IMG/VR virus record: IMGVR_UViG_3300032288_004643
Coordinates: 1 to 23,338 of that record
Strand: one strand, 5' to 3'
Source: a virus
DNA length: 23,338 nt
Numbering within the stretch: the first letter of the stretch is position 1; each line of letters opens with the position of its first letter. The translations under genes were made by a program, and so were the position numbers. The notes beneath the pieces are model-generated. The model saw only the letters and a program-made list of their open reading frames with translations, was not told the origin of the DNA and did no database searches. Positions 660-23,338 of the stretch are shown here, in pieces.

Positions 660-912
660 GAAGGAACCAGTAAGATATAACGGAATATACTACGACTTTA
701 CAGGACTGGACGAGCACAAACTGCAGAACATATACGACAACCACCCTCTACTGAGGCACCTGTTTGAGTTTATTGAAGAAGAGGTTGTTGTAAAAGACAA
801 GCTAGACGATTTTCTTACAAGGAACAAGCCAGAAGGAAAGACAGAAGAAGAGTTCTTCAACGACACGATCGAAGAGATAAAAAAATCAAAACCTATTAGA
901 AAGAAGAAATGA
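643..912 (+). CDS. Uncharacterised 89-residue protein, paralog B
   Basis: Tandem paralog of the preceding gene and also 89 residues long. The start MIRLIKKEPVRYNGIYYDF matches MVRLIKNEPIRHNGVYYDF of its neighbour. Similarity fades after about residue 43. The C-terminus is rich in Lys and Glu and ends in a basic tail (PIRKKK), which could bind DNA or an acidic partner. Its stop overlaps the start of the large terminase in an ATGA junction. No family was recognised. Retention of two diverged copies between TerS and TerL suggests each has some role, possibly as a heteromeric packaging accessory, but nothing in the sequence proves it. Confidence 0.7.
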   Translation: MIRLIKKEPVRYNGIYYDFTGLDEHKLQNIYDNHPLLRHLFEFIEEEVVVKDKLDDFLTRNKPEGKTEEEFFNDTIEEIKKSKPIRKKK

Positions 913-2081
913 GCGAACTCGTAATAAAGCACACCAATGTAATGACTAGGAACTATGAGGCCTTGATGGACGAAAAGATAAGATTTGTCGTAAATCAGGG
1001 CTCTACTAGATCCTCGAAGACCTATTCATTATGCCAGCTTGTTATAGTATATTGCCTGAACAATCCAAACAAGATAGTATCTATTGTTAGAAAGTCGTTT
1101 CCGTCTCTTAGGAGCACCGTAATGAGAGATATGATGGATATACTCGTCGAACTAAAGATATATCGAGAGAACAAGCACAACAAGACGGAAAACATATACT
1201 CTTTCGACAACGGAGCCAAGATAGAGTTCTTCTCTTTGGACGATCCTCAAAAGATAAGAGGTCGTAAGAGGGATGTTCTGTGGTGCAACGAAAGCAACGA
1301 ACTATCATTCGAGGACTTTAACCAGTTGAACTTCCGTACCAGCGAGAAGCTATTCTTCGATTTTAATCCAAGTGATAGCGAGCATTGGCTATACGACATA
1401 TTGGAGAAGGAAGACGCGGTTCTTATTCACAGCACCTACAAGGACAATACATTCTTGCCAGCATCTCTCGTAAAGGAGATTGAGGACCTGATAAATGTAG
1501 ACCAAGACTACTACAACATATACGCACTTGGTCTTCCGAGCAAGTCGAACCACACCATATTCAACCATCAAAAGCCATACGCGGAGGAACTAAAAGGATA
1601 CGACGATGTTGTATACGGGCTCGACTTTGGGTTCCAGCATCCAACCGCCCTGATCCAATGCTCGTTCAAAGAAGACATAGTGTTCGTAAAGGAGATAATA
1701 TACGAGAGCTATCTGACTACGGAGGACCTCATAAACAAGATGAGGATGCTTGGCATACCAAAATCATTGAAGATAGTGTGCGACTATGCCAGACCAGAGA
1801 TAATAGAGGAACTTAGAAGAGAGGGATACAACTGCCACAACGCGGTAAAGAATGTAAAGGAAGGGATAGACGCGGTAAAATCATACAAGCTATTCTACCA
1901 CCATGAAAGCACCAACATCGCGAAGGAGTTTAGAAACTACAAATGGAAGGTCATTGGAGAAAGAATACAGGACGAACCAGTAAAGTTATGGGACGACGCG
2001 ATGGACGCGATAAGATATGCCGTTCTGGACCACAAGAAAAACACGAGGAGATCTGGCGGAGTAGAGTTCATTTCCTTTTAA
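909..2081 (+). CDS. terL: Large terminase subunit (ATPase and nuclease)
   Basis: Packaging motor that pumps DNA into the prohead and cuts it. The 390-residue length is normal for a Terminase_3/PBSX-type large subunit. Visible motifs run in order. The Walker A-like P-loop is GSTRSSKT at residues 31-38, and Walker B is DVLWCNE at 122-128 with catalytic Glu128. A coupling-type segment DFNPSD lies at 151-156. The RNase H-like nuclease acidic residues are Asp239 in YGLDFG, Asp292 in VCDYA, and Asp363/Asp366 in DDAMDAIRYA. All expected catalytic residues are present, so the protein appears intact. It overlaps the preceding gene by four bases, and the 40-nt repeat begins at its stop codon. Confidence 0.95.
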   Translation: MSELVIKHTNVMTRNYEALMDEKIRFVVNQGSTRSSKTYSLCQLVIVYCLNNPNKIVSIVRKSFPSLRSTVMRDMMDILVELKIYRENKHNKTENIYSFDNGAKIEFFSLDDPQKIRGRKRDVLWCNESNELSFEDFNQLNFRTSEKLFFDFNPSDSEHWLYDILEKEDAVLIHSTYKDNTFLPASLVKEIEDLINVDQDYYNIYALGLPSKSNHTIFNHQKPYAEELKGYDDVVYGLDFGFQHPTALIQCSFKEDIVFVKEIIYESYLTTEDLINKMRMLGIPKSLKIVCDYARPEIIEELRREGYNCHNAVKNVKEGIDAVKSYKLFYHHESTNIAKEFRNYKWKVIGERIQDEPVKLWDDAMDAIRYAVLDHKKNTRRSGGVEFISF

Positions 2082-3311: not shown

Positions 3312-3956
3312 ATGAAGACCTGGAAAGACATAACACTGAGACAAGCAATAGAAATAGACCAGCTTGGAGAGATGGACGAGGTAGACCTTATCATAAACCA
3401 GATGGCGATAATAAGAGATACTACGACAGACGCGATAGAGGCACTATCTCCATTGGAGTTTGCCAAGTTTGTCGAAGAATACAAGTTTATGGGAGACATT
3501 CCTAAGCCAAAGCATATAAAATCGTTCAAAAAGAACGGAAAGCTATACCAGATGACGGAACTTCAAGAGATAAACCTAGCGCAGATGGTAGACATTGAAG
3601 AATACTATACCGCAGGATTTTTAAAGAACGCGCACAAGATACTTTCGGTTCTATACTTGCCGGTAAAGACGAAGAACATTATCACGAGAAAGATAGAGTT
3701 GGAAGAATACAAGCCAGATCCTAAAAGAGAAGAGATGTTCTTGGATATGGATATGGAGTTTGTTTGGCAGAACCTGATTTTTTTTTGGAATATCGGTCAG
3801 ATTTATATAAAAGGTTTGACGGACTATTCGGAGGATCAAGTGAAGACGGCGATGGAGGAGTTGAAGTCGGCGACAAGCCTGGACGAAGAAGCTTCGAAGA
3901 CAGACAAGCAGAGCAAGCCGAAGAACGACAAAGAAAGTGGAACTGGGTTGGAATAA
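3312..3956 (+). CDS. Tail assembly chaperone, short form (gpG-like)
   Basis: A 214-residue protein of the kind that binds the tape measure during long-tail assembly. It has a helical N-terminal body (residues about 1-155), starting with TWKDITLRQAIEID and containing repeated acidic and hydrophobic helices. After the shift site it ends in a charged, Lys/Glu-rich disordered tail. The assignment rests mainly on architecture. A run of nine T residues at 3778-3786 lies just where a second frame opens, and that frame supplies a C-terminal domain typical of gpGT-type products. It is followed by tail-terminator-like and gp10-like genes, which fits a tail operon. The ATG at 3312 lies just after a TATATTTA box. 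Confidence 0.65.
   Translation: MKTWKDITLRQAIEIDQLGEMDEVDLIINQMAIIRDTTTDAIEALSPLEFAKFVEEYKFMGDIPKPKHIKSFKKNGKLYQMTELQEINLAQMVDIEEYYTAGFLKNAHKILSVLYLPVKTKNIITRKIELEEYKPDPKREEMFLDMDMEFVWQNLIFFWNIGQIYIKGLTDYSEDQVKTAMEELKSATSLDEEASKTDKQSKPKNDKESGTGLE
3778..3786 (+). other. Probable -1 frameshift slippery run (nine T)
   Basis: In the zero frame the run reads ATT TTT TTT TGG. A heptamer T TTT TTT (3779-3785) satisfies the X XXY YYZ rule for tandem -1 slippage. After the shift, reading resumes as TTG GAA TAT and stays open to 4069. The -1 frame is open only from 3725 and contains no ATG before the run. I did not identify a convincing stimulatory stem-loop downstream. Confidence 0.7.
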
Positions 3957-4069
3957 TATACGACCTATGTAGAGGAGACATAACAAAGACGGAAGCAATA
4001 CTAGAAAAGACCTTTACGGAATGCCTGATATGGCTATCATACGAAAAGGAGATGAACATAAAAAAATAA
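3785..4069 (+). CDS. Frameshift extension of the tail assembly chaperone (gpGT-like T domain)
   Basis: Ninety-four residues expected to be fused to residues 1-158 of the chaperone by -1 slippage, giving a product of about 252 residues. The extension has an acidic Gly/Asp/Glu-rich linker. A conserved-looking end follows: WNWVGIIYDLCRGDITKTEA, then ILEKTFTECLIWLSYEKE. In lambda-like phages the long form bridges the tape measure and tail tube subunits. Independent translation is unlikely, because the only in-frame starts before the domain are TTG or other weak codons. The region 3786-3956 is thus dual-coding, with both frames protein-like. It ends seven bases before the next ATG. Confidence 0.68.
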   Translation: MEYRSDLYKRFDGLFGGSSEDGDGGVEVGDKPGRRSFEDRQAEQAEERQRKWNWVGIIYDLCRGDITKTEAILEKTFTECLIWLSYEKEMNIKK

Positions 4070-4075
4070 AAGAAA

Positions 4076-4513
4076 ATGAGTTTTACTTACAACCAGATTA
4101 TCAAATACTTCGGAGACATCGCGGCGGCGCATCCATTCATAAACAGGTTTGGATCGGGCGACATATCCGACATCGACAGCATTTCTGACGATTATGGGCT
4201 ATTTCCTATTCTATGGGTGGTTCCTCAATCGGTAAACATTGGAGAGAACACGCTGACCTACAAGTTCAGGTTTATGGTCTTCGACATAGACAACACGGAC
4301 GACAGCCATCAACAAGAGATTTTATCGGATACTCTATCTACCTTTTTGGATGTCGTAAAGACATTCATAAACATAGACCCGTCGGTGGATATAGAATACA
4401 ACAACGAAGCGTATCCATTTACGGAAAGGTTCACGGACTATCTTTGCGGATGGTACGGAGACCTATCCATAATAACGGACCTAAACAACAACCCTTGCGA
4501 CATACCTGAATAA
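4076..4513 (+). CDS. Tail terminator / head-tail joining-like protein
   Basis: A 145-residue protein with a pattern I associate with a conserved gene of Bacteroidota phages: an early aromatic-rich segment with HPFINRFGSGDISDID, a central beta-strand FRFMVFDID, then a helix LSDTLSTFLDVVKTF. After that come PFTERFTDYLCGW and a C-terminal NPCDIPE. In long-tailed phages the slot before or after a gp10-like gene normally encodes the tail terminator that caps the tube and joins it to the head. It overlaps the next gene by one base (TAATG). The function is inferred from position and fold-like pattern rather than a catalytic motif. Confidence 0.55.
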   Translation: MSFTYNQIIKYFGDIAAAHPFINRFGSGDISDIDSISDDYGLFPILWVVPQSVNIGENTLTYKFRFMVFDIDNTDDSHQQEILSDTLSTFLDVVKTFINIDPSVDIEYNNEAYPFTERFTDYLCGWYGDLSIITDLNNNPCDIPE

Positions 4514-4974
4514 TGGCAGAGATAAAAGTAGAGAAGACCTTAGAACAGCTAGGGTGGCAGATAGTAAAGGAGATGAAGGCCTTAATAAAGATGAATGGCT
4601 CGTTCGCATCAGGAGAGCTATACAACTCCGTAAAGAGCAAGGCGTTCAAGGACCAGAACAATGTATATCATCTAGAGATAGACTATATCTACTATGGTCT
4701 TTTCGTAGACAAAGGAACAAAGCCAGGACACATGCCAAACATAAATAGCATTAGAGAATGGTGCCGACTAAAAGGCATATCGCAAGACGCGGCGTTCTTT
4801 ATCGCAAGAAACATATTCAGGAACGGAACAAAGGCAAGACCATTCACAACTCCTTTTAGCAGAGACAGCAAGGTCATAAACGACATAATAAAGGAGATGG
4901 GCAAAGAGTTCGCGAACGACGCGGAAAGACAGATAATGAGAGACGCAAAATACTTCAAAGGAAGAATAAAATAA
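4513..4974 (+). CDS. HK97 gp10-like neck / tail-completion protein
   Basis: A 153-residue protein with features of the HK97 gp10-like family: ASGELYNSVKSK near residues 32-43, a beta-hairpin IDYIYYGLFVDKGTKPG near 56-72, and a GTKARPFTTPF motif near 110-120. The family contributes to the connector or tail-completion complex joining head and tail. Helices in the first 25 residues and the Arg/Lys-rich end are consistent with it. The length is normal. It is translationally coupled to the previous gene. The next gene starts 11 bases later after an A-rich leader. Confidence 0.72.
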   Translation: MAEIKVEKTLEQLGWQIVKEMKALIKMNGSFASGELYNSVKSKAFKDQNNVYHLEIDYIYYGLFVDKGTKPGHMPNINSIREWCRLKGISQDAAFFIARNIFRNGTKARPFTTPFSRDSKVINDIIKEMGKEFANDAERQIMRDAKYFKGRIK

Positions 4975-13667: not shown

Positions 13668-14588
13668 ATGAGCATTTGTATAAAGAGCACGGACCAAAAG
13701 TATATTCTAGACTACGATGAACTATCAGGCCAACTAAAGGTCATGAGTTTTTCGTATTCTACTTGGGACCAATCGCAGCAAGAATACAATATGGTTCTAT
13801 CGAACACCACATATATTGGAGGAGGAACAGGAAGCGGCGGTTCAGGAAGTTCAGGAACTAGCGGAACATCTGGTTCGTCAGGAACATCAGGAACATCAGG
13901 AACTAGCGGAACATCCGGCGCGATTGGCGCGACAGGCCCGGCAGGACAGCAAGGTATATCGACAGGACAGATATACTATTTTAATCAATCCGCCACATCA
14001 TCCATATCGCCATATAGAGTTTTAGGAATAGATCCATTGGCGAACGGAGGTTCTATTCTTACTCATACTCTTACAAACAACGAACAGGACTACTTGGTAT
14101 CGGAATATATAACGGAAGAGTTAGGTTTCGCGGTTATACCTGGCGGAACGCAAAGATTTCATATCCATTCATTGAAGCCAGCATCGAACGACCATATAGA
14201 GATATATGTGACGATACAGCTGGCGGATAGTTCAGGAACAGCGATCGGACCAGTTATATCAACCAGTGCCAATCTGGTTCCATGGGTAGACGATACGACG
14301 CCATCGGAAACATTGGTGGATTTGACTATATCTACGCAGACGATAGACCCTACGAACAGAATGATTGTAAGGATATATGCCAACAACAACGATAGCACGA
14401 CGCATGTTTTTAAGTACTATACAGAAGGAACATCATACTATTCTTTCGTAATAACATCGGTAGGAGTTGTAGGCGGAACAAGCGGAACATCAGGAAGTTC
14501 AGGAACAAGCGGAACATCAGGAACATCAGCCAGCAATGACCCTCAGGTCGTAGACGCGATGCTACTTTTCTTATCGATAAACACATAA
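13668..14588 (+). CDS. Virion protein with collagen-like Gly-Thr-Ser repeats
   Basis: A 306-residue protein with two Gly-x-y repeat segments flanking a beta-rich domain. The first, residues 63-96, is GTS/GSS triplets running into GAIGATGPAGQQG. The second, residues 270-287, is GTS/GSS only. At DNA level these are 9-base-type repeats (13831-13923 and 14476-14529). The domain at about 100-268 is rich in Thr, Ile and Tyr with strands such as HIEIYVTIQLADSSG and MIVRIYANN, and looks like a jelly-roll exposed on the particle. Gly-x-y segments in phage fibres can form trimeric helices or flexible linkers. The C-terminus (DPQVVDAMLLFLSINT) is short and hydrophobic. Likely a fibre or decoration protein. 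Confidence 0.6.
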   Translation: MSICIKSTDQKYILDYDELSGQLKVMSFSYSTWDQSQQEYNMVLSNTTYIGGGTGSGGSGSSGTSGTSGSSGTSGTSGTSGTSGAIGATGPAGQQGISTGQIYYFNQSATSSISPYRVLGIDPLANGGSILTHTLTNNEQDYLVSEYITEELGFAVIPGGTQRFHIHSLKPASNDHIEIYVTIQLADSSGTAIGPVISTSANLVPWVDDTTPSETLVDLTISTQTIDPTNRMIVRIYANNNDSTTHVFKYYTEGTSYYSFVITSVGVVGGTSGTSGSSGTSGTSGTSASNDPQVVDAMLLFLSINT

Positions 14589-16135: not shown

Positions 16136-19100
16136 ATGGCAGATAACATAAAGATAGACTTACTCATAAACGCGGCTCAATCCGCGAAGACGATAGGAGA
16201 GACGAAGAAGGCTTTGAGAGACCTTAAAAGCGAGGCACTGAACCTAAAAGAAGGAACCGCTGCCTTTACGAGAGTTGCGACCGCGGCAGGTGAGTTGCAG
16301 GATAAGATATCCGATTTGAGCGCGACTACAAAATATCTAGGAGACGACCTTAGAAAGATAAAGGGTATATCTGGCATTGGAGAAGGCATAGCGGGTGGGT
16401 TCGCTATGGCACAAGGCGCGGCGGCACTATTCGGTGGAGAGAACAAGAAACTCGAAGAAAGCATGGTAAAGCTCCAAGCAGTCATGGCCGTTATACAAGG
16501 AATGACAGCGATCGGAAATGTTCTACAAAAGGAAAGCGCGGCAGTGCTATTCATAAAGAATACCGTGACCAAGGCGGCGGTTATGTTGGGATGGCAGGAT
16601 GTTGCTGCTACAGAAGCACAAACCGTAGCTACGGTGGCAGAAACTGCGGCGACAGAGGCACAGGTAGTTGCTACAGAAAGCGCGACAATCGCTCAAAAGT
16701 TGTTGAACCTAGCAATGAAGGCAAACCCTATTGGACTTTTAATAGGACTTATCACGGCAGGAGTTGCCGCTCTTATGCTATGGAGCGACGCGTCTAGCAA
16801 GGCTGCCGAAGCAGAAAAGAAATCAAACGAGGAAAAGAAGAAGGCTGCCGACCTATTGAAGAAGAAAAACGAGGAAACTAAAAAGGAAACGGATTATATA
16901 GCAAAAGAAAGCACCGGATATGTAACCCTTATAGAAAAACTTAAACAGACCAACGCAGGATCAAAGGAAAGAAAAGATTTAATAAAGCAGATAAACTCGA
17001 CATATGGTGCGACATTGAAGAACATAAGCGATGAAAAGAAGTTCCAAGACCAGCTAAACGGATCGGTTCAGGACTATATTAAATACAAGACGGACGAATA
17101 TAACCTATTAAAGAACGAGGAGAAAATAACCTTAAACCTAAAAAAGCAGGATGATATAAAAAAGGATATTGTTTCGATAGAAAAGGAACTTCTTATGGCG
17201 ACCGTAAAGAGAAACGCGGCAATCGCATCGGCTCCAAAGGATTTTGATGTAAATAGATTGCCAGATGTAATAAGATATAACGAACTTACAAAATCATTAA
17301 GTAAAAACCAGGCAGAACTTACCAACGCGGAAAAAAGGATGGCATCTTATACTACTACTATTATGGATACCACGGCGGAAATGGAGAAGCTAGGCTTTAA
17401 GACGGATGATACGATGAACAAATCGGTAAAATCTACCGATAAGGCAATCGATAAGCAAAAAGAACTTCGTATTGCTGCCTTAAAATCACAGGAAGATTTT
17501 TTAAAGGCCAAAAAAGATATGAACGATCAAGACAGAGAGGATTTGATAGACCTTGAAAACAAGCGAATAGGTCTGATGAAAGATGGATTTGAAAAGGAGA
17601 AGGCTTTATTGGAACAGGCAGCGAAGGAGGAAATCGACGCAAGAAGACAGAGAGATGCCGAGGCATTGAAGGATTATAGTATTAAATATGAAAAAGCCAT
17701 AACAGATCGAATGGCATTGGATAAGAGTTCTAGAGAAGAGGCCAGAAAGGCGGTAGAAAAGGATGCTAAGGAAGGAAGGGCTGTTGATGCAGAAGCGTCC
17801 GCAAGAGCAATAAGTAGGGCAAAGTTTGAAAAGGATATAACAGACAAACTAGCAATAGACATAGCCAAAGCAAAGGTTGATGCTGATAAAAAAGCATTAG
17901 AAGATAGCCAAAAACTTAGTATAGATAGTATAGAAGCCACCTATAAAAAAGAGTTGGATATAATAAACAGCGCGAGCGAATATAAAGGAGAAAGTACAAT
18001 ATTTACCGCAGAGGAATATATCAAAAAACTAGAAGATGTTGAAAAGGCAAAAGAAGATATGCTAAAAAGGATCTCATCATTCCAAAAGGACGAAAGTGTT
18101 ACGATGACAGAAATGTCTAGAACAGACTACAAAACACAATATCAAACATTGGCAGAGTTTACTAGAAAACAAAGAAAGATGAGAGAGGATAGTATGAACG
18201 AAGCCCATAAGAGAAACAAAGAGGAGTTTAAAAGTGGATTAAAAGATGAGCAGATGTATATTGAAGAAAGGGCCGCCATAAACAAAAAATGGGCTGAGGA
18301 TGATTTGACATATAAAGAAGAGTTGAATAAAAAACTATTTACCATATCTTCCGAAGGAACTACTATTGAATACAATGATAAAAAAACATATTTAGAAAAT
18401 CTTGTAGACTTGTTTGACAAAAAGTATGGAAGGATAACAGAAATCGTAACAGAAGAAAACGAAAACAAGGCGAATGACCAGATAGCGGCAGACCAAAAGG
18501 CATTGGAAGAAAAACAGGCTTTCTGGGACCAGATGATTGAACTAGAACAGCAAGGACAGCAGCTTATGATGAGCATATTCAACAACGCGATGGCGCAGAG
18601 AGAATATACCGTAAACAAGGAATATGAAAACAAAATCGCGCAGATAGACAGCGAAATGCAAGCATACGAAAACGCTCAGGCGGAAAGGACCGTACAGCAG
18701 CAGATAGAATATGACATACAGCAAGGCTTTGAGAACCAAAAAGCGGCGGCAGAGAGAGCAAGAGACATAGAACTAGACAAAGTAAAGCAAAAGCAGTTCA
18801 ATGCTCAAAAGGCTAATGATTTGGCGACAATAGCAATCTCTACCGCAAAGGCGATCGCTAAAACCGTAGCAGAACTAGGTGGAGTTGGAGCCATAACGCC
18901 AATGGGTGCCGCGATTATAGCAGGAGTTGGAATAACTGGAGCAGTACAGGCAGGAATAGTGGCATCGAAAGAATATATTCCATCGTTCGCGACAGGAGGT
19001 ATATTCGAAGGAAACGGAATGGTAAAAGGTCCAGGTTCAGGAACAAGCGATAGCGTAAACGCAAGGCTTTCGAACGGAGAAGCGGTCATCAACGCCAAGT

Positions 19101-19354
19101 CCACAAAGATGTTCGCGCCAATGCTGTCTGCCATAAACGAAGCAGGTGGTGGAAAGGCAATACCGCATTTAAAAAACGGAGGGATATATACAGAACCGGC
19201 AATGCAGTATCAATCATCTTCTATAGATACGCAGGCGATAGTGGAGGCGATATATTCTGCGAGCGATAGGCCAATAGAGACTTATGTAAAAGAAAACTCT
19301 ATAACGACCGCGCAAAAAAGAGCGCAGAGACTAAAAGGAAGAACATCGTTTTAA
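16136..19354 (+). CDS. Tail tape measure protein
   Basis: A 1072-residue protein that sets tail length and is ejected during infection. Evidence includes its size, the long coiled-coil and Lys/Glu/Ala-rich stretches (about 225-860), and a hydrophobic segment near residues 196-216 (IGLLIGLITAGVAALML). There is also a Gly/Ala-rich hydrophobic region near 896-945. The ending is characteristic: FATGGIFEGNGMVKGPGSGT, SDSVNARLSNGEAVINAKST, then a Gly-rich KNGG. Helical tape measures give roughly 0.15 nm per residue, so a tail of about 150-160 nm is inferred. The block 17160-18480 is more AT-rich, with T-ending codons, than the rest. The tail chaperone, usually adjacent, lies 12 kb upstream. Confidence 0.88.
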   Translation: MADNIKIDLLINAAQSAKTIGETKKALRDLKSEALNLKEGTAAFTRVATAAGELQDKISDLSATTKYLGDDLRKIKGISGIGEGIAGGFAMAQGAAALFGGENKKLEESMVKLQAVMAVIQGMTAIGNVLQKESAAVLFIKNTVTKAAVMLGWQDVAATEAQTVATVAETAATEAQVVATESATIAQKLLNLAMKANPIGLLIGLITAGVAALMLWSDASSKAAEAEKKSNEEKKKAADLLKKKNEETKKETDYIAKESTGYVTLIEKLKQTNAGSKERKDLIKQINSTYGATLKNISDEKKFQDQLNGSVQDYIKYKTDEYNLLKNEEKITLNLKKQDDIKKDIVSIEKELLMATVKRNAAIASAPKDFDVNRLPDVIRYNELTKSLSKNQAELTNAEKRMASYTTTIMDTTAEMEKLGFKTDDTMNKSVKSTDKAIDKQKELRIAALKSQEDFLKAKKDMNDQDREDLIDLENKRIGLMKDGFEKEKALLEQAAKEEIDARRQRDAEALKDYSIKYEKAITDRMALDKSSREEARKAVEKDAKEGRAVDAEASARAISRAKFEKDITDKLAIDIAKAKVDADKKALEDSQKLSIDSIEATYKKELDIINSASEYKGESTIFTAEEYIKKLEDVEKAKEDMLKRISSFQKDESVTMTEMSRTDYKTQYQTLAEFTRKQRKMREDSMNEAHKRNKEEFKSGLKDEQMYIEERAAINKKWAEDDLTYKEELNKKLFTISSEGTTIEYNDKKTYLENLVDLFDKKYGRITEIVTEENENKANDQIAADQKALEEKQAFWDQMIELEQQGQQLMMSIFNNAMAQREYTVNKEYENKIAQIDSEMQAYENAQAERTVQQQIEYDIQQGFENQKAAAERARDIELDKVKQKQFNAQKANDLATIAISTAKAIAKTVAELGGVGAITPMGAAIIAGVGITGAVQAGIVASKEYIPSFATGGIFEGNGMVKGPGSGTSDSVNARLSNGEAVINAKSTKMFAPMLSAINEAGGGKAIPHLKNGGIYTEPAMQYQSSSIDTQAIVEAIYSASDRPIETYVKENSITTAQKRAQRLKGRTSF

Positions 19355-19374
19355 TCTACGAAAAAACAAAAAAA

Positions 19375-19382
19375 TATATTTA
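19375..19382 (+). promoter_or_regulatory. TATATTTA box 4, upstream of the protease-scaffold gene
   Basis: An exact octamer copy five bases before the ATG at 19388. As with box 1, a transcript starting from it would be essentially leaderless. It lies in a 33-base gap and is preceded by an A-rich tract. Confidence 0.45.
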
Positions 19383-19387
19383 AGAGT

Positions 19388-20467
19388 ATGGAACAAAACC
19401 TAAAGACCTATAAAGTGGTCGTAAACCCAGAAGACGAGCTTACAGGAGTTTATGCGGTAAGTTTGGTAGACCAACCTGCAATCGAAGTTGATTGGATAAA
19501 GCTAGGAAAGGTAGAAGACTTCTTCTTTTCGGCAAACGGAGACAAGCAGATGCTGTTTGGACCATTGCTTATTCCAGGAAAGCTTATTTTGAGAAAGAGC
19601 CAATCAGGAGAACTATTCAACATCGTCTTTGACGCGGAAACTATACAGATTATCGCGGACAAATACAACGAAAGCAAAATCAACGACATATTCAACTTTC
19701 AGCATAGCGATAGACAGGTAAACGCCGTTCTTCTTCAAAACTGGATAACAGGAGAGAAAGACAAGTCTCAGGACTATGGATTTGACCTTCCATCAGGAAC
19801 TTGGTTCGCGGGAGTGAAGGTAAAGGACGAGGAGTTTTGGCTAAACGAAGTAAAGACAGACAGAGTTAAAGGATTTTCGATAGAGGTAAAGGCTGATGTC
19901 GAACTAATAAAGATGACGGCGGAGGCCGATAAAAATGAAATAATACTTATGAACTACAAAACAAAAGACGGAGTTGAGTTAGAAGGCGATATCGCGATCG
20001 GGGCTGACTTGTTCGTAGTTGCGGAAGACGGATCGAAAGCGCCAGCAGAAGGCGAGTACGAACTAGAGGACGGAACTAAAATCGTTGCGTTGGCAGGTAA
20101 AGTTGTCGAGGCAGAAAGTCCAGCAGAAGAAGCAGTTGAAGAAGACATGGCAGAAGCTCCAGAAGCGGAAGCGCCAGCAGCGCCAGTGGTAGACAACCAA
20201 GCAATCATGGATGCGGTGGCACCAATGTTCGAAGAGATGAGAACTATCATTGCTGACTTATCTTCAAGATTGGACGCGTTGGAAAATGTACCAGCAGAAC
20301 CAGCAGACGAGCAAATGAGCAAGATTGAGGAACTAGAAGAGAAACTATCTATTCTATCATCATTGGCAGGAGCGCCATCTATCACTAAAAAGACGGATAC
20401 TCAAATCAAAAGGGAAGACGCAGAGGCTATCCTTTTAAACAAGATTAGCTTCTTCAAAAGAAAGTAA
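19388..20467 (+). CDS. XkdF-like prohead protease fused to a scaffold domain
   Basis: A 359-residue protein. Residues 1-170 match the XkdF-type phage serine protease pattern (Peptidase_S78_2). It begins TYKVVVNPEDELTGVYAVSL with VDQPAIEV, then FGPLLIPGKLILR. Next come FNFQHSD with candidate catalytic His106, PSGTWFAGVKV, and KGFSIE with candidate Ser164. Residues about 185-240 form a small beta-rich domain. Residues 241-270 are a Pro/Ala/Glu-rich linker, and 275-325 a coiled coil (FEEMRTIIADLSSRLDALEN) as in scaffolding proteins. The fused product would template capsid assembly and then cleave itself and perhaps other head proteins. It sits immediately before the major capsid gene, as expected. 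Confidence 0.78.
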   Translation: MEQNLKTYKVVVNPEDELTGVYAVSLVDQPAIEVDWIKLGKVEDFFFSANGDKQMLFGPLLIPGKLILRKSQSGELFNIVFDAETIQIIADKYNESKINDIFNFQHSDRQVNAVLLQNWITGEKDKSQDYGFDLPSGTWFAGVKVKDEEFWLNEVKTDRVKGFSIEVKADVELIKMTAEADKNEIILMNYKTKDGVELEGDIAIGADLFVVAEDGSKAPAEGEYELEDGTKIVALAGKVVEAESPAEEAVEEDMAEAPEAEAPAAPVVDNQAIMDAVAPMFEEMRTIIADLSSRLDALENVPAEPADEQMSKIEELEEKLSILSSLAGAPSITKKTDTQIKREDAEAILLNKISFFKRK

Positions 20468-20488
20468 AATCTACAAAAAACAAAACTA

Positions 20489-20505
20489 TTATACTTCTGG
20501 TATAA
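20489..20505 (+). promoter_or_regulatory. Perfect inverted repeat in the capsid gene leader
   Basis: TTATAC-TTCTG-GTATAA is a six-base perfect inverted repeat with a five-base centre, ending 22 bases before the ATG at 20528. It could be a 5'-end RNA hairpin, a protein-binding dyad or part of the capsid promoter. No TATATTTA box precedes this gene, so this is the most distinctive element in its 60-base leader. Confidence 0.4.
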
Positions 20506-20527
20506 AAACAAAAAAAATAAACACATT

Positions 20528-21451
20528 ATGAAAAAAAATGATTTCAAACTATCATTCACTGACAATACTACATTCACAGGTATTGACGCAGAAGGATTTT
20601 ACGCAAAAGCGTTATTGACTGGAAAATCTAAAGAGGCTTTCAGATTGATACCGAATGTAAAGTCAAAAATCAAGTTAGGAGAACTTGCTATCGGAAACAT
20701 CTTGGGAGATGCTGATTGTTCATTCTCATCTGCTGGAGAAGGCGTATTGAACCAAAAAGCGTTCGAAGTAAACGCGATCAAAATCAACTTGGAGTACTGC
20801 CAAAGAACTTTTGAAGTAAACTACTTATCGCAGTTATTGAGACCAGGATCGAACAACGACGAAGTTATGCCAGCAACGGTTGAAAGCTTCTTGTTAGACC
20901 AAGTTTCTTTAAAAGTATCTGCTGACACTGAACAACTTGTTTGGAAAGGCGACACTGCTACTGCTTCTTACCCATTATCATTGGTTGATGGATTAGAGAA
21001 ACAACTTTTAGCTGACGCTGCGGTTATCGATGTAGCATCTACTACTTTATCAAAATCAAACATCATCGCTCAGTTAGGATTGGTATACGATAAAATACCA
21101 GAAACTATCATCGGTGCTGAGGATTTAAGAATATTCTTATCTCCATCTGCTTTCAGATTTTACAGAGAAGCATTGGCTGACGCATCTGCTGAGGCAAACT
21201 ACATGCAAAACTATGCTGAACTTCACTTCTTAGATGTTAAGTTGTCAGTTGCTCCTGGTATTTCTACTAACAAAATGGTTGCTGCTAGAACATCAAACCT
21301 TTTATTGCTTACAGATTTAATGTCTGATTTCGAAGACATCCAAATCTTGCCACAAAAATCCGTAACAGGTGTTCCAGTCGTAAGAATGGTTGGAGAGTTC
21401 AAGTTCGGAGTAGGATATATCTTCGGTTCAGAAATCGTTTTCTATAACTAA
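20528..21451 (+). CDS. Major capsid protein (HK97-fold type)
   Basis: A 307-residue protein directly after the protease-scaffold gene. It has the composition and ending of phage coat proteins: an N-terminal arm, a central helix region (QVSLKVSADTEQLVWKGD), SPSAFRFYREALADA, and a C-terminal strand set (VPVVRMVGEFKFGVGYIFGS). The codon pattern differs from most of the window, with Ile mainly ATC/ATT, Ala GCT and Thr ACT. That is common for the most abundant virion protein. It is followed by a strong intrinsic terminator. Sequence alone does not show whether the N-terminus is removed by the protease. Confidence 0.82.
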   Translation: MKKNDFKLSFTDNTTFTGIDAEGFYAKALLTGKSKEAFRLIPNVKSKIKLGELAIGNILGDADCSFSSAGEGVLNQKAFEVNAIKINLEYCQRTFEVNYLSQLLRPGSNNDEVMPATVESFLLDQVSLKVSADTEQLVWKGDTATASYPLSLVDGLEKQLLADAAVIDVASTTLSKSNIIAQLGLVYDKIPETIIGAEDLRIFLSPSAFRFYREALADASAEANYMQNYAELHFLDVKLSVAPGISTNKMVAARTSNLLLLTDLMSDFEDIQILPQKSVTGVPVVRMVGEFKFGVGYIFGSEIVFYN

Positions 21452-21470
21452 GATTAAAAAAACAACATAG

Positions 21471-21494
21471 AACCCACCGAATGGTGGGTTTTAA
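21471..21494 (+). terminator. Intrinsic terminator after the capsid gene
   Basis: An eight-base perfect stem AACCCACC/GGTGGGTT with a GAAT loop, followed by a short T run (TTAAT). It lies 20 bases after the capsid stop codon and would end the capsid transcript. Confidence 0.8.
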
Positions 21495-21515
21495 TAAAAT
21501 AAAAAATATATTATT

Positions 21516-22052
21516 ATGGCAATATGTAATGCTTTAACAAATGGTTTAGACAAGTCTTGCGACACTAACGCGGGTGGTATAAACAAAATCTTCATAACCG
21601 ATTGGGAAAATGTAACGAATGTAACCGACGGAGCAGGAACAGGCGGAGACTGGATCACGGCTATCACATTGGCTGGGACTACTAAGTTCTACGAGTTCCA
21701 AACAAACAAAAATGTTTGCAACTTTACAGAAAGCGTAGCTATCGACTTGGTTGCTGGAACAACATTCTTCAATCAAATCGTGACTTTGGTCTTATCAAGA
21801 AGAGAGACTATCAAAAGAGACGCGATCGAAAAACTTGTAGCAGGTCAAAAACAACTTGCGATCATAGTTTTAGATAGTAATGGACTATACTGGTATTCAG
21901 GTCTTAACGAAGGTTCATATGTATCTGCTATCGAAGGCGGATCAGGAACTGCTAAGGCTGATGCTAATGGCTACACAATCACATTCACTGCGATGGAGCC
22001 TTTACAGATGTATCAAATAGACCCAACAATCGTTGGCGCTTTAATAGCATAA
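21516..22052 (+). CDS. Probable major tail tube protein
   Basis: A 178-residue protein that matches a pattern I associate with an abundant tail (tube) protein of Bacteroidota phages. It has an early Cys-rich start (CNALTNGLDKSCDTNAGGI), then IFITDWENVTNVT, FYEFQTNKNVCNFTESV, TTFFNQIVTLVLSRRE, LAIIVLDSNGLYWYSGL, and YTITFTAMEPLQMYQID at the end. The strand-helix-strand layout fits the tube fold. It uses ATC-rich codons like the capsid gene, consistent with high expression. Terminators lie on both sides, so it appears to be its own transcription unit. A TATATTAT sequence just before the ATG is a degenerate form of the box seen elsewhere. Confidence 0.65.
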   Translation: MAICNALTNGLDKSCDTNAGGINKIFITDWENVTNVTDGAGTGGDWITAITLAGTTKFYEFQTNKNVCNFTESVAIDLVAGTTFFNQIVTLVLSRRETIKRDAIEKLVAGQKQLAIIVLDSNGLYWYSGLNEGSYVSAIEGGSGTAKADANGYTITFTAMEPLQMYQIDPTIVGALIA

Positions 22053-22072
22053 TCGTAAAAACAGAGATTTTT

Positions 22073-22099
22073 AGCCCTTCCTATATGGAGGGGCTTTTT
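22073..22099 (+). terminator. Intrinsic terminator after the tail tube gene
   Basis: A nine-base stem AGCCCTTCC/GGAGGGGCT with one G-T pair and a TATAT loop, followed directly by TTTT. It lies 20 bases after the stop codon at 22052. Confidence 0.85.
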
Positions 22100-22125
22100 G
22101 TTTAATAAACGAAAATATTCAAAAA

Positions 22126-22133
22126 TATATTTA
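22126..22133 (+). promoter_or_regulatory. TATATTTA box 5, upstream of the 154-residue gene and portal
   Basis: An exact octamer copy 21 bases before the ATG at 22155 and 26 bases after the terminator, so a new transcript must begin here or nearby. A TATAAATA sequence (the T4 late-promoter consensus) also lies at 22137-22144. This is the best-placed box for a promoter role. Confidence 0.55.
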
Positions 22134-22154
22134 GAATATAAATAAAGAAAAGCA

Positions 22155-22619
22155 ATGATTATACTAAGAGGAGGACAGAACGAGGTATCGCTTACACTAA
22201 ACGAAAAGTTTGATTTTTACACGCCACCCGTATCGGCATATGTAGACCTATACTATGTTGTGAAGATTGATGACAGAATGAGCGAGTATACTCAAAACTT
22301 CATACTTCTATCAGACAATGACCTATCAACCAATCCAGAAAGAAGCAACAAGTTTAGAATAGACATAACAGGAACAACGCAGTCCGATCCTTGGAGCGCG
22401 TCTCAGTCATACCCTATCGTTGGTTTTACAGGACAGAACGAGCTTAACTTCGACAGCCAATGGGACTACGAGGTATGGGCATTGGAAGGACCTGCTCCTA
22501 CAAGCGGAACCATCAGCATCGCGGCAAACGGGCCGACTGCGTTGGGACCAGCATTGCTAGAACAAGGAAGACTATTATACACGAACAAATATGGAAAGCC
22601 AAGGCATCTTCCACACTAA
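22155..22619 (+). CDS. Unrecognised virion-type protein before the portal
   Basis: A 154-residue beta-rich protein with no membrane segment or catalytic motif. It starts MIILRGGQNEVSLTLNEKFD and includes NPERSNKFRIDITG, WDYEVWALEGPAP and a C-terminal ALLEQGRLLYTN. Similar-looking small genes occur in Bacteroidota phage structural modules, but I know no assigned function. It is transcribed with the portal, whose ATG follows 15 bases later, so a connector or head-vertex accessory role is possible. This is inference from context. Confidence 0.6.
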   Translation: MIILRGGQNEVSLTLNEKFDFYTPPVSAYVDLYYVVKIDDRMSEYTQNFILLSDNDLSTNPERSNKFRIDITGTTQSDPWSASQSYPIVGFTGQNELNFDSQWDYEVWALEGPAPTSGTISIAANGPTALGPALLEQGRLLYTNKYGKPRHLPH

Positions 22620-22634
22620 AAATAAAATAGAAAA

Positions 22635-23338
22635 ATGAAAATATTCGGATACAACCTATCAAAGATACAGACGCCTCAAATAGAGCAACCAGCGACTTTT
22701 AATATAGGAATGGATAGTTTATCTCTATCTGCTATGACGGACCTTCCTGTGATAAAGGAAAGCAGAAACAAAGAGTATGTGGAGTATGGAACGACAAACC
22801 TATATCCTGAATACTTGAAAGATATGTTCAACACTTCACCGACACACAACGCGATTGTAAAGACAAAGGCTCAGATGGTCGTAGGAGATGGATGGGTATA
22901 CGACGACAGCACATTGGACGAAGCAAAGAAGATTGAGGTTCAAAAGATACTAAACTTCATCAAAAGAGATATGTATGACCTATCTTTAGACTATCAGATA
23001 TTCGGTGCGATGGCTTTCGAGATTATATGGAGCCTTGACTTTTCGAGAGTAGTAGAGGTAAACAGAATAGATGTATCAAAGCTAAGAAGCGGAAAGTTTG
23101 AAGAAGGAGAGGTTGAGGAATGGTACTACAAAAGAGACTGGTCCAACAGAAGAGAAGAAGCGGCGTGCATACCGGTTTTGGACCTATCGAACAGACAGGA
23201 TCACAGACAGATTATCTACATTCCAGGACAGATGGTATCGAACGAATACTATGCCGAACCGCAATACATCTCATCTATGGATTGGATAACATTGGAAAGC
23301 CAGGTTGGACTATACTATAGAAGCCTTATCGAAAACGG
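22635..23338 (+). CDS. Portal protein (partial, 3' end beyond window)
   Basis: Open from the ATG at 22635 to the window edge, giving 234 residues of an incomplete protein. The N-terminus has YVEYGTTNLYPEYLKDMFNT, then SPTHNAIVKTKAQMVVGDGW, followed by LSLDYQIFGAMAFEII near residues 115-130. It continues with EVNRIDVSKLRSGKF, a tryptophan-rich segment and PGQMVSNEYYAEPQYIS. This order is typical of phage portal proteins: an N-terminal arm, a trimming helix with paired hydrophobics, and a conserved NRIDxxKLR-type strand. The portal forms the dodecameric DNA gate at the head vertex and docks the terminase. It is far from terL and in an unusual position after the capsid gene. Confidence 0.82.
   Translation, partial: MKIFGYNLSKIQTPQIEQPATFNIGMDSLSLSAMTDLPVIKESRNKEYVEYGTTNLYPEYLKDMFNTSPTHNAIVKTKAQMVVGDGWVYDDSTLDEAKKIEVQKILNFIKRDMYDLSLDYQIFGAMAFEIIWSLDFSRVVEVNRIDVSKLRSGKFEEGEVEEWYYKRDWSNRREEAACIPVLDLSNRQDHRQIIYIPGQMVSNEYYAEPQYISSMDWITLESQVGLYYRSLIEN

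Follow-up and report, generated by a model that had tools for sequence, protein, structure and literature searches.

Results

A two-frame gene with a T9 run next to the terminase gene

The window, by which we mean the whole IMG/VR virus record of 23,338 bases analyzed here, carries on its plus strand a gpG-like gene (3312–3956) whose zero frame encodes a protein of 214 residues with homologous relatives and an AlphaFold2 model. A run of nine T residues (T9) lies within this gene at 3778–3786 and includes an in-phase T TTT TTT heptamer (3779–3785), a candidate ribosomal slip site. The −1 frame of the same strand is open from 3725 to 4069, and from 3785 onward it would supply the conserved C-terminal domain of a longer form. 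Joining 3312–3785 to 3785–4066 in translation of the window gives a product of 252 residues that reads ...NLIFFLEYRSD... across the junction. The original prediction had placed both frames, the T9 run and the in-phase heptamer at the correct coordinates and had put the long form at about 252 residues, which agrees with the joined product. It had also claimed that the −1 frame has no ATG before the shift site; we searched this part of the window and found none, though there is a TTG at 3764. The only A/T runs of at least nine in the window are this T9 and one A9 at the end of a gene (7257); chance alone would produce about one run of this kind. The single copy in the window therefore proves little, and the evidence is comparative.

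The gene upstream encodes the terminase large subunit (terL; 909–2081, plus strand; phrog_2, E 8e-43). This neighbor is conserved in 47–50 of 64 representatives, and in the best-matching ones terL starts 1.6–3.5 kb upstream of the run. Downstream, a gene for a protein of 145 residues (4076–4513, plus strand), possibly a tail terminator, is found about 0.3 kb from the run in 45 of the 64, followed by a HK97-gp10-like or neck protein (4513–4974, plus strand; phrog_5, E 5.5e-6) that lies about 0.7–0.8 kb downstream of the run in relatives. The tape measure gene (16136–19354, plus strand; several PHROG tape-measure families, best E 2e-13) is located about 12 kb downstream of the slip-site gene. 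This distance had been pointed out as an oddity for a tail chaperone; the distance stands, but a position between terL and the tail-terminator/neck genes is shared by the relatives and is the rule in this lineage as far as the loci reach.

Relatives keep the layout and the length of the run

Searches with the zero-frame protein matched 14 viral contigs at first and 31 thereafter. When distant members served as queries, 80 marine contigs and another small family were added. Two cultured Nonlabens phages, P12024L and P12024S, emerged in this way from a phage collection, and their kin accounted for 63 contigs. In tblastn against the phage collection, the window protein, its −1 frame, and the proteins of L025 and L034 found no relative, and the two Nonlabens phages were reached only by the L028 and P12024L queries. 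Judging from these phages, the host group is apparently Bacteroidota. In a genome collection, the A1 profile had no match and the L035 query matched one marine contig (L340, 6001–6639) of a metagenome-assembled genome labelled Euryarchaeota, which has a T9 copy with 78% identity to L035. It is probably a misbinned phage contig, or may have an archaeal host.

Every member that spans the site shows the same order of elements: a conserved N-terminal protein, the T-run, a short divergent zero-frame tail, and a conserved domain in the −1 frame. Recruitment with the N-terminal protein yielded 172 loci, 165 with T9 and seven with T10; they comprise 125 unique slip regions and fall into 65 clusters at 80% identity. 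We separately recruited loci with the −1-frame C-terminal domain, scanning with closer subsets since the C-terminal domains taken all together were too diverse to serve as one search profile, and obtained 107 unique regions (103 T9, three T10, one T12). Pooling both sets gave about 199 unique regions, with T9 in about 96%, T10 in seven, and T12 in one. Runs of 7, 8, or 11 were absent among these regions, and none was shorter than nine. One locus, L248, was considered as an exception lacking the T-run and was rejected, as it has T9 plus an indel farther downstream. Natural T10/T12 variants occur in L295, L291, L296, L302, L066, and L125; they would be a useful natural test of how slippage efficiency depends on run length.

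The two-form product from one start, as originally proposed for the window, thus recurs as a layout in about 199 distinct regions and two cultured phages. This bears on a trivial explanation, that a sequencing or assembly error in the homopolymer splits what is truly one continuous ORF. Homopolymers are error-prone, but the same offset is repeated across independent metagenomes and in the Nonlabens phages, which were cultured and sequenced separately. A single ORF resulting from 8 or 10 T's, an outcome named beforehand as one that would overturn the prediction, was not found, no fused ORF was seen, and the T12 variant (9+3) retains the frame offset. We regard an error as a negligible prospect.

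The −1 frame is under selection and mostly lacks an ATG

Downstream of the run, 893 sequence pairs of moderate divergence gave dN/dS values of 0.34 for the −1 frame, 0.90 for the zero frame, and 1.59 for the +1 frame. Beyond the zero-frame stop, the −1 frame had a value of 0.21; the zero frame upstream of the run had 0.25. The low values of the −1 frame (0.34 and 0.21) therefore indicate that its domain is under purifying selection and is a real part of a protein. The zero-frame tail, by the same measure, drifts near-neutrally and is mostly just left open. Of the suggestion that both downstream frames encode plausible protein, the half concerning the −1 frame holds up, and that concerning the zero-frame tail does not.

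In Nonlabens phages P12024L and P12024S (JQ823123, JQ823122), gp40 and gp41 (phrog_32199) are homologous to the genes studied here and have an identical T9 layout, but are annotated as two unrelated hypothetical proteins in a record that does not mention recoding. The joined peptide across the run would read ILFFLSFR in P12024L. An arrangement of two separate genes, with internal initiation of the second one in the −1 frame, would fit the ATG start that GenBank gives gp41 of P12024L and could use the TTG at 3764 in the window. Against this, an ATG is missing from the −1 frame ahead of its last 45 codons in 47 of the 62 complete cases, including the window, so that this frame usually cannot be a separate ATG-started gene, and the conserved −1 frame begins exactly at the run, with FFL. 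We therefore consider two genes very improbable; homologs with a separate start for the second frame, the other outcome that would have spoken against the original prediction, were not found. Because the two-frame layout is conserved, the −1 frame is under selection, and it mostly lacks an ATG, the comparison indicates that the short and the long form are made by programmed recoding that is deeply conserved. This would explain why annotation misses the long product and why the P12024L gene is split into two hypothetical proteins.

Nine T's are maintained in three codon registers

Alignment of the homologs confirmed that the length of the run is conserved, and gave a more differentiated answer for its phase: an in-phase heptamer is always there, whereas the register of the run varies. 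T9 occurs in all three codon registers, with 152 unique regions in register 1, 31 in register 2 (30 if L248 is not counted), and eight in register 0, the seven T10 and the one T12 being counted apart. Register 1 has the pattern V/L/I-F-F-Y/W/C/S, in which the codon before FF is only V, L, or I (xTT). In register 2 the pattern is G/S/N/T/A/C-F-F-L/F, the codon before FF being restricted to these six residues and the following codon to TTR or TTC, and in register 0 it is R-F-F-F-V/A. The two flanks are coupled: with T at position two of the codon before FF, the codon after FF gives one T; otherwise it gives two. A constraint on the protein could account for part of the restriction to V/L/I before FF.

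On a tree of the family, the residue preceding FF changed at least nine times in register 1 and at least 14 times in register 2, and T8 never resulted. A change from GTT to GCT in register 1, for example, would yield T8 without disturbing either the heptamer or the long frame. The tree has 16 changes of register or run length, fewer of them forced by well supported branches, and three switches between registers 1 and 2, two of which are so forced. In a formal paired test of the coupling, the two to three independent register 1/2 switches were too few for significance.

The mechanism first proposed was a programmed −1 ribosomal frameshift by tandem tRNA-Phe slippage on T TTT TTT (3779–3785), as in lambda gpG/gpGT and P2 E/E+E′. 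This is the usual mechanism of phage tail chaperones, every register has the heptamer in phase, and phage P2 slips on T TTT TTG without a structure (PMC3091744). Any T9 holds an in-phase T TTT TTT in whichever register it lies, however, and the presence of the heptamer is therefore not diagnostic. Seven T's would suffice for the ribosome, yet runs of seven or eight were never seen and coupled variation of the flanking codons preserves nine. We also found no conserved stimulator on either side of the run: no pseudoknot-free RNA structure flanking it was conserved (mean z about 0 to −0.3 overall), and an SD-like motif was absent in 60 of 63 cases. The missing structure and SD motif are a weak argument alone, P2-type ribosomal sites being structure-free as well. 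We judge ribosomal slippage a possible but rather unlikely main route, the second-best fit to a run of at least nine T's kept across three registers. In the window itself, a hairpin lies directly 3′ of the T9 at 3787–3829 (z −3.9 for +0 to +45); it was not conserved among the close relatives compared.

Runs of nine A or T make bacterial RNA polymerase slip efficiently, and the RNA:DNA hybrid of this enzyme spans 9–10 bp (PMC5009743; PMC1088944). We favor transcriptional slippage as the probable main route to the long form, because nine T's are kept across registers with coupled flanks although seven suffice for the ribosome, and because 9–10 T's match both the length of the polymerase hybrid and the threshold known for efficient slippage. 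Two hallmarks of genes with transcriptional slippage are present, a run of at least nine A/T of conserved length within a frame overlap and maintenance of this run irrespective of codon register (three registers here). The two-frame layout and its conservation, the selection on the −1 frame, and the conservation of run length across registers are results at the level of sequence.

Fold of the short form and possible role

The AlphaFold2 model of the short form has a pLDDT of 91 and places the slip run inside a long helix (residues 148–198), whereas the model of the C-terminal domain is weak (pLDDT 69). Searches of the short form against Pfam, PDB sequences, the PDB with Foldseek, and VIA-align gave no usable match, and its fold may be an unlisted one. 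Foldseek against BFVD matched many uncharacterised phage proteins, including the P12024S homolog, and one annotated tail assembly chaperone with a weak E of 0.028. Among the PHROG families, phrog_32199, whose function is listed there as unknown, accounts for 46 of 65 members; four members have weak matches to phrog_166 (‘tail protein’; best E 0.005). A remote fold relative, R9VW65 of Flavobacterium phage 6H (L180, 10352–10927, minus strand), is encoded upstream of what may be a tail (tape measure) gene. It lacks the T9, has a broken frame pattern, and was left out of the comparison; its frame is disrupted near TGTTTTTTC, by either another recoding site or sequencing errors.

A tail-assembly-chaperone role of the two-form protein, as originally proposed, is likely by analogy. 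It draws on the two-form architecture, the weak fold match (E 0.028), and the weak phrog_166 matches rather than on homology to a characterised chaperone. Like lambda gpG/gpGT (PMC5009743), the system has one start, a short and a long form, a −1 change near the 3′ end, and a distinct C-terminal domain, and the two products from one start are kept among relatives at the level of sequence. Unlike the lambda genes, it has no detectable sequence homology to them, its slip site is a T9 run, and the gene lies beside terL and the tail terminator rather than just before the tape measure. It falls outside the stretch that separates the major tail gene from the tape measure gene. We do not claim membership of the gpG/gpGT family; the resemblance would be one of working only.

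Discussion

We propose that standard expression of the gene at 3312–4069 gives the 214-residue short form, and that RNA polymerase would slip on the T9 and add one extra U (U10) in a fraction of transcripts. Ordinary translation of the U10 transcripts would run through ...I-F-F-L-E-Y-R-S-D... into the −1 frame and give the 252-residue long form with its conserved C-terminal domain. Part of this form may also come from ribosomes that slip in tandem at the T TTT TTT within the run. The short form would act like lambda gpG and coat the tape measure, and the long form, like gpGT, would recruit tail-tube subunits at a set ratio.

Comparable sites are known. The P2 E/E+E′ site (PMC3091744) is likewise T-rich, leads into the −1 frame, and is structure-free downstream, but it has six T's followed by one G and is regarded as ribosomal, whereas at least nine T's in any register are kept here. 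Runs of nine A or T are shared with Thermus thermophilus dnaX and with mxiE (PMC5009743, PMC1088944, PMC3711429); the T-run of mxiE (n > 8) gains one extra U that joins two overlapping ORFs, the same arrangement as proposed here. Both are cellular or plasmid genes with proven slippage, whereas ours would be a phage virion-assembly gene with slippage deduced from sequence. Citrobacter rodentium tssM1, with transcriptional slippage on A11, also yields products of two lengths in a fixed ratio; both are required, and the machine they belong to is related to phage tails (PMC4256274). In contrast to our case, tssM1 is a secretion gene with an A11 run that is not conserved across a large family. Apart from general reviews and prediction tools, a search of open-access papers turned up none that ties transcriptional slippage to phage tail chaperones.

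The viruses concerned form a large family that infects marine and freshwater bacteria, and they keep a nine-T run in one virion-assembly gene that yields a short and a long protein. On balance, we lean toward the view that this whole lineage of tailed phages, apparently of Bacteroidota, controls the ratio of the two tail-assembly proteins through slippage of RNA polymerase on a strictly conserved T9–T10, in place of the ribosomal frameshift on which other phages rely for it. If true, a fixed ratio would be reached at another level of gene expression, as between the dnaX genes of E. coli and Thermus, and phages would have a widespread and deeply conserved programmed transcriptional slippage. 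A cultured phage–host pair, P12024L and Nonlabens/Persicivirga sp. IMCC12024, exists and allows a direct test.

Other features of the window

Two adjacent, overlapping ORFs of 89 residues upstream of terL (390–659 and 643–912) are clear paralogues (MVRLIKNEPIRHNGVYYDFT... and MIRLIKKEPVRYNGIYYDFT...), a tandem duplication. The region 16136–23336 has an unusual order, with the tape measure gene ahead of genes for protease-like, capsid-like, and portal proteins. At the opposite end of the contig lie terL, the slip-site gene, and the neck genes. This order may reflect circular permutation. A protein encoded at 13668–14588 contains collagen-like GTSGSSGTSG repeats and has weak matches to tail-fibre profiles.
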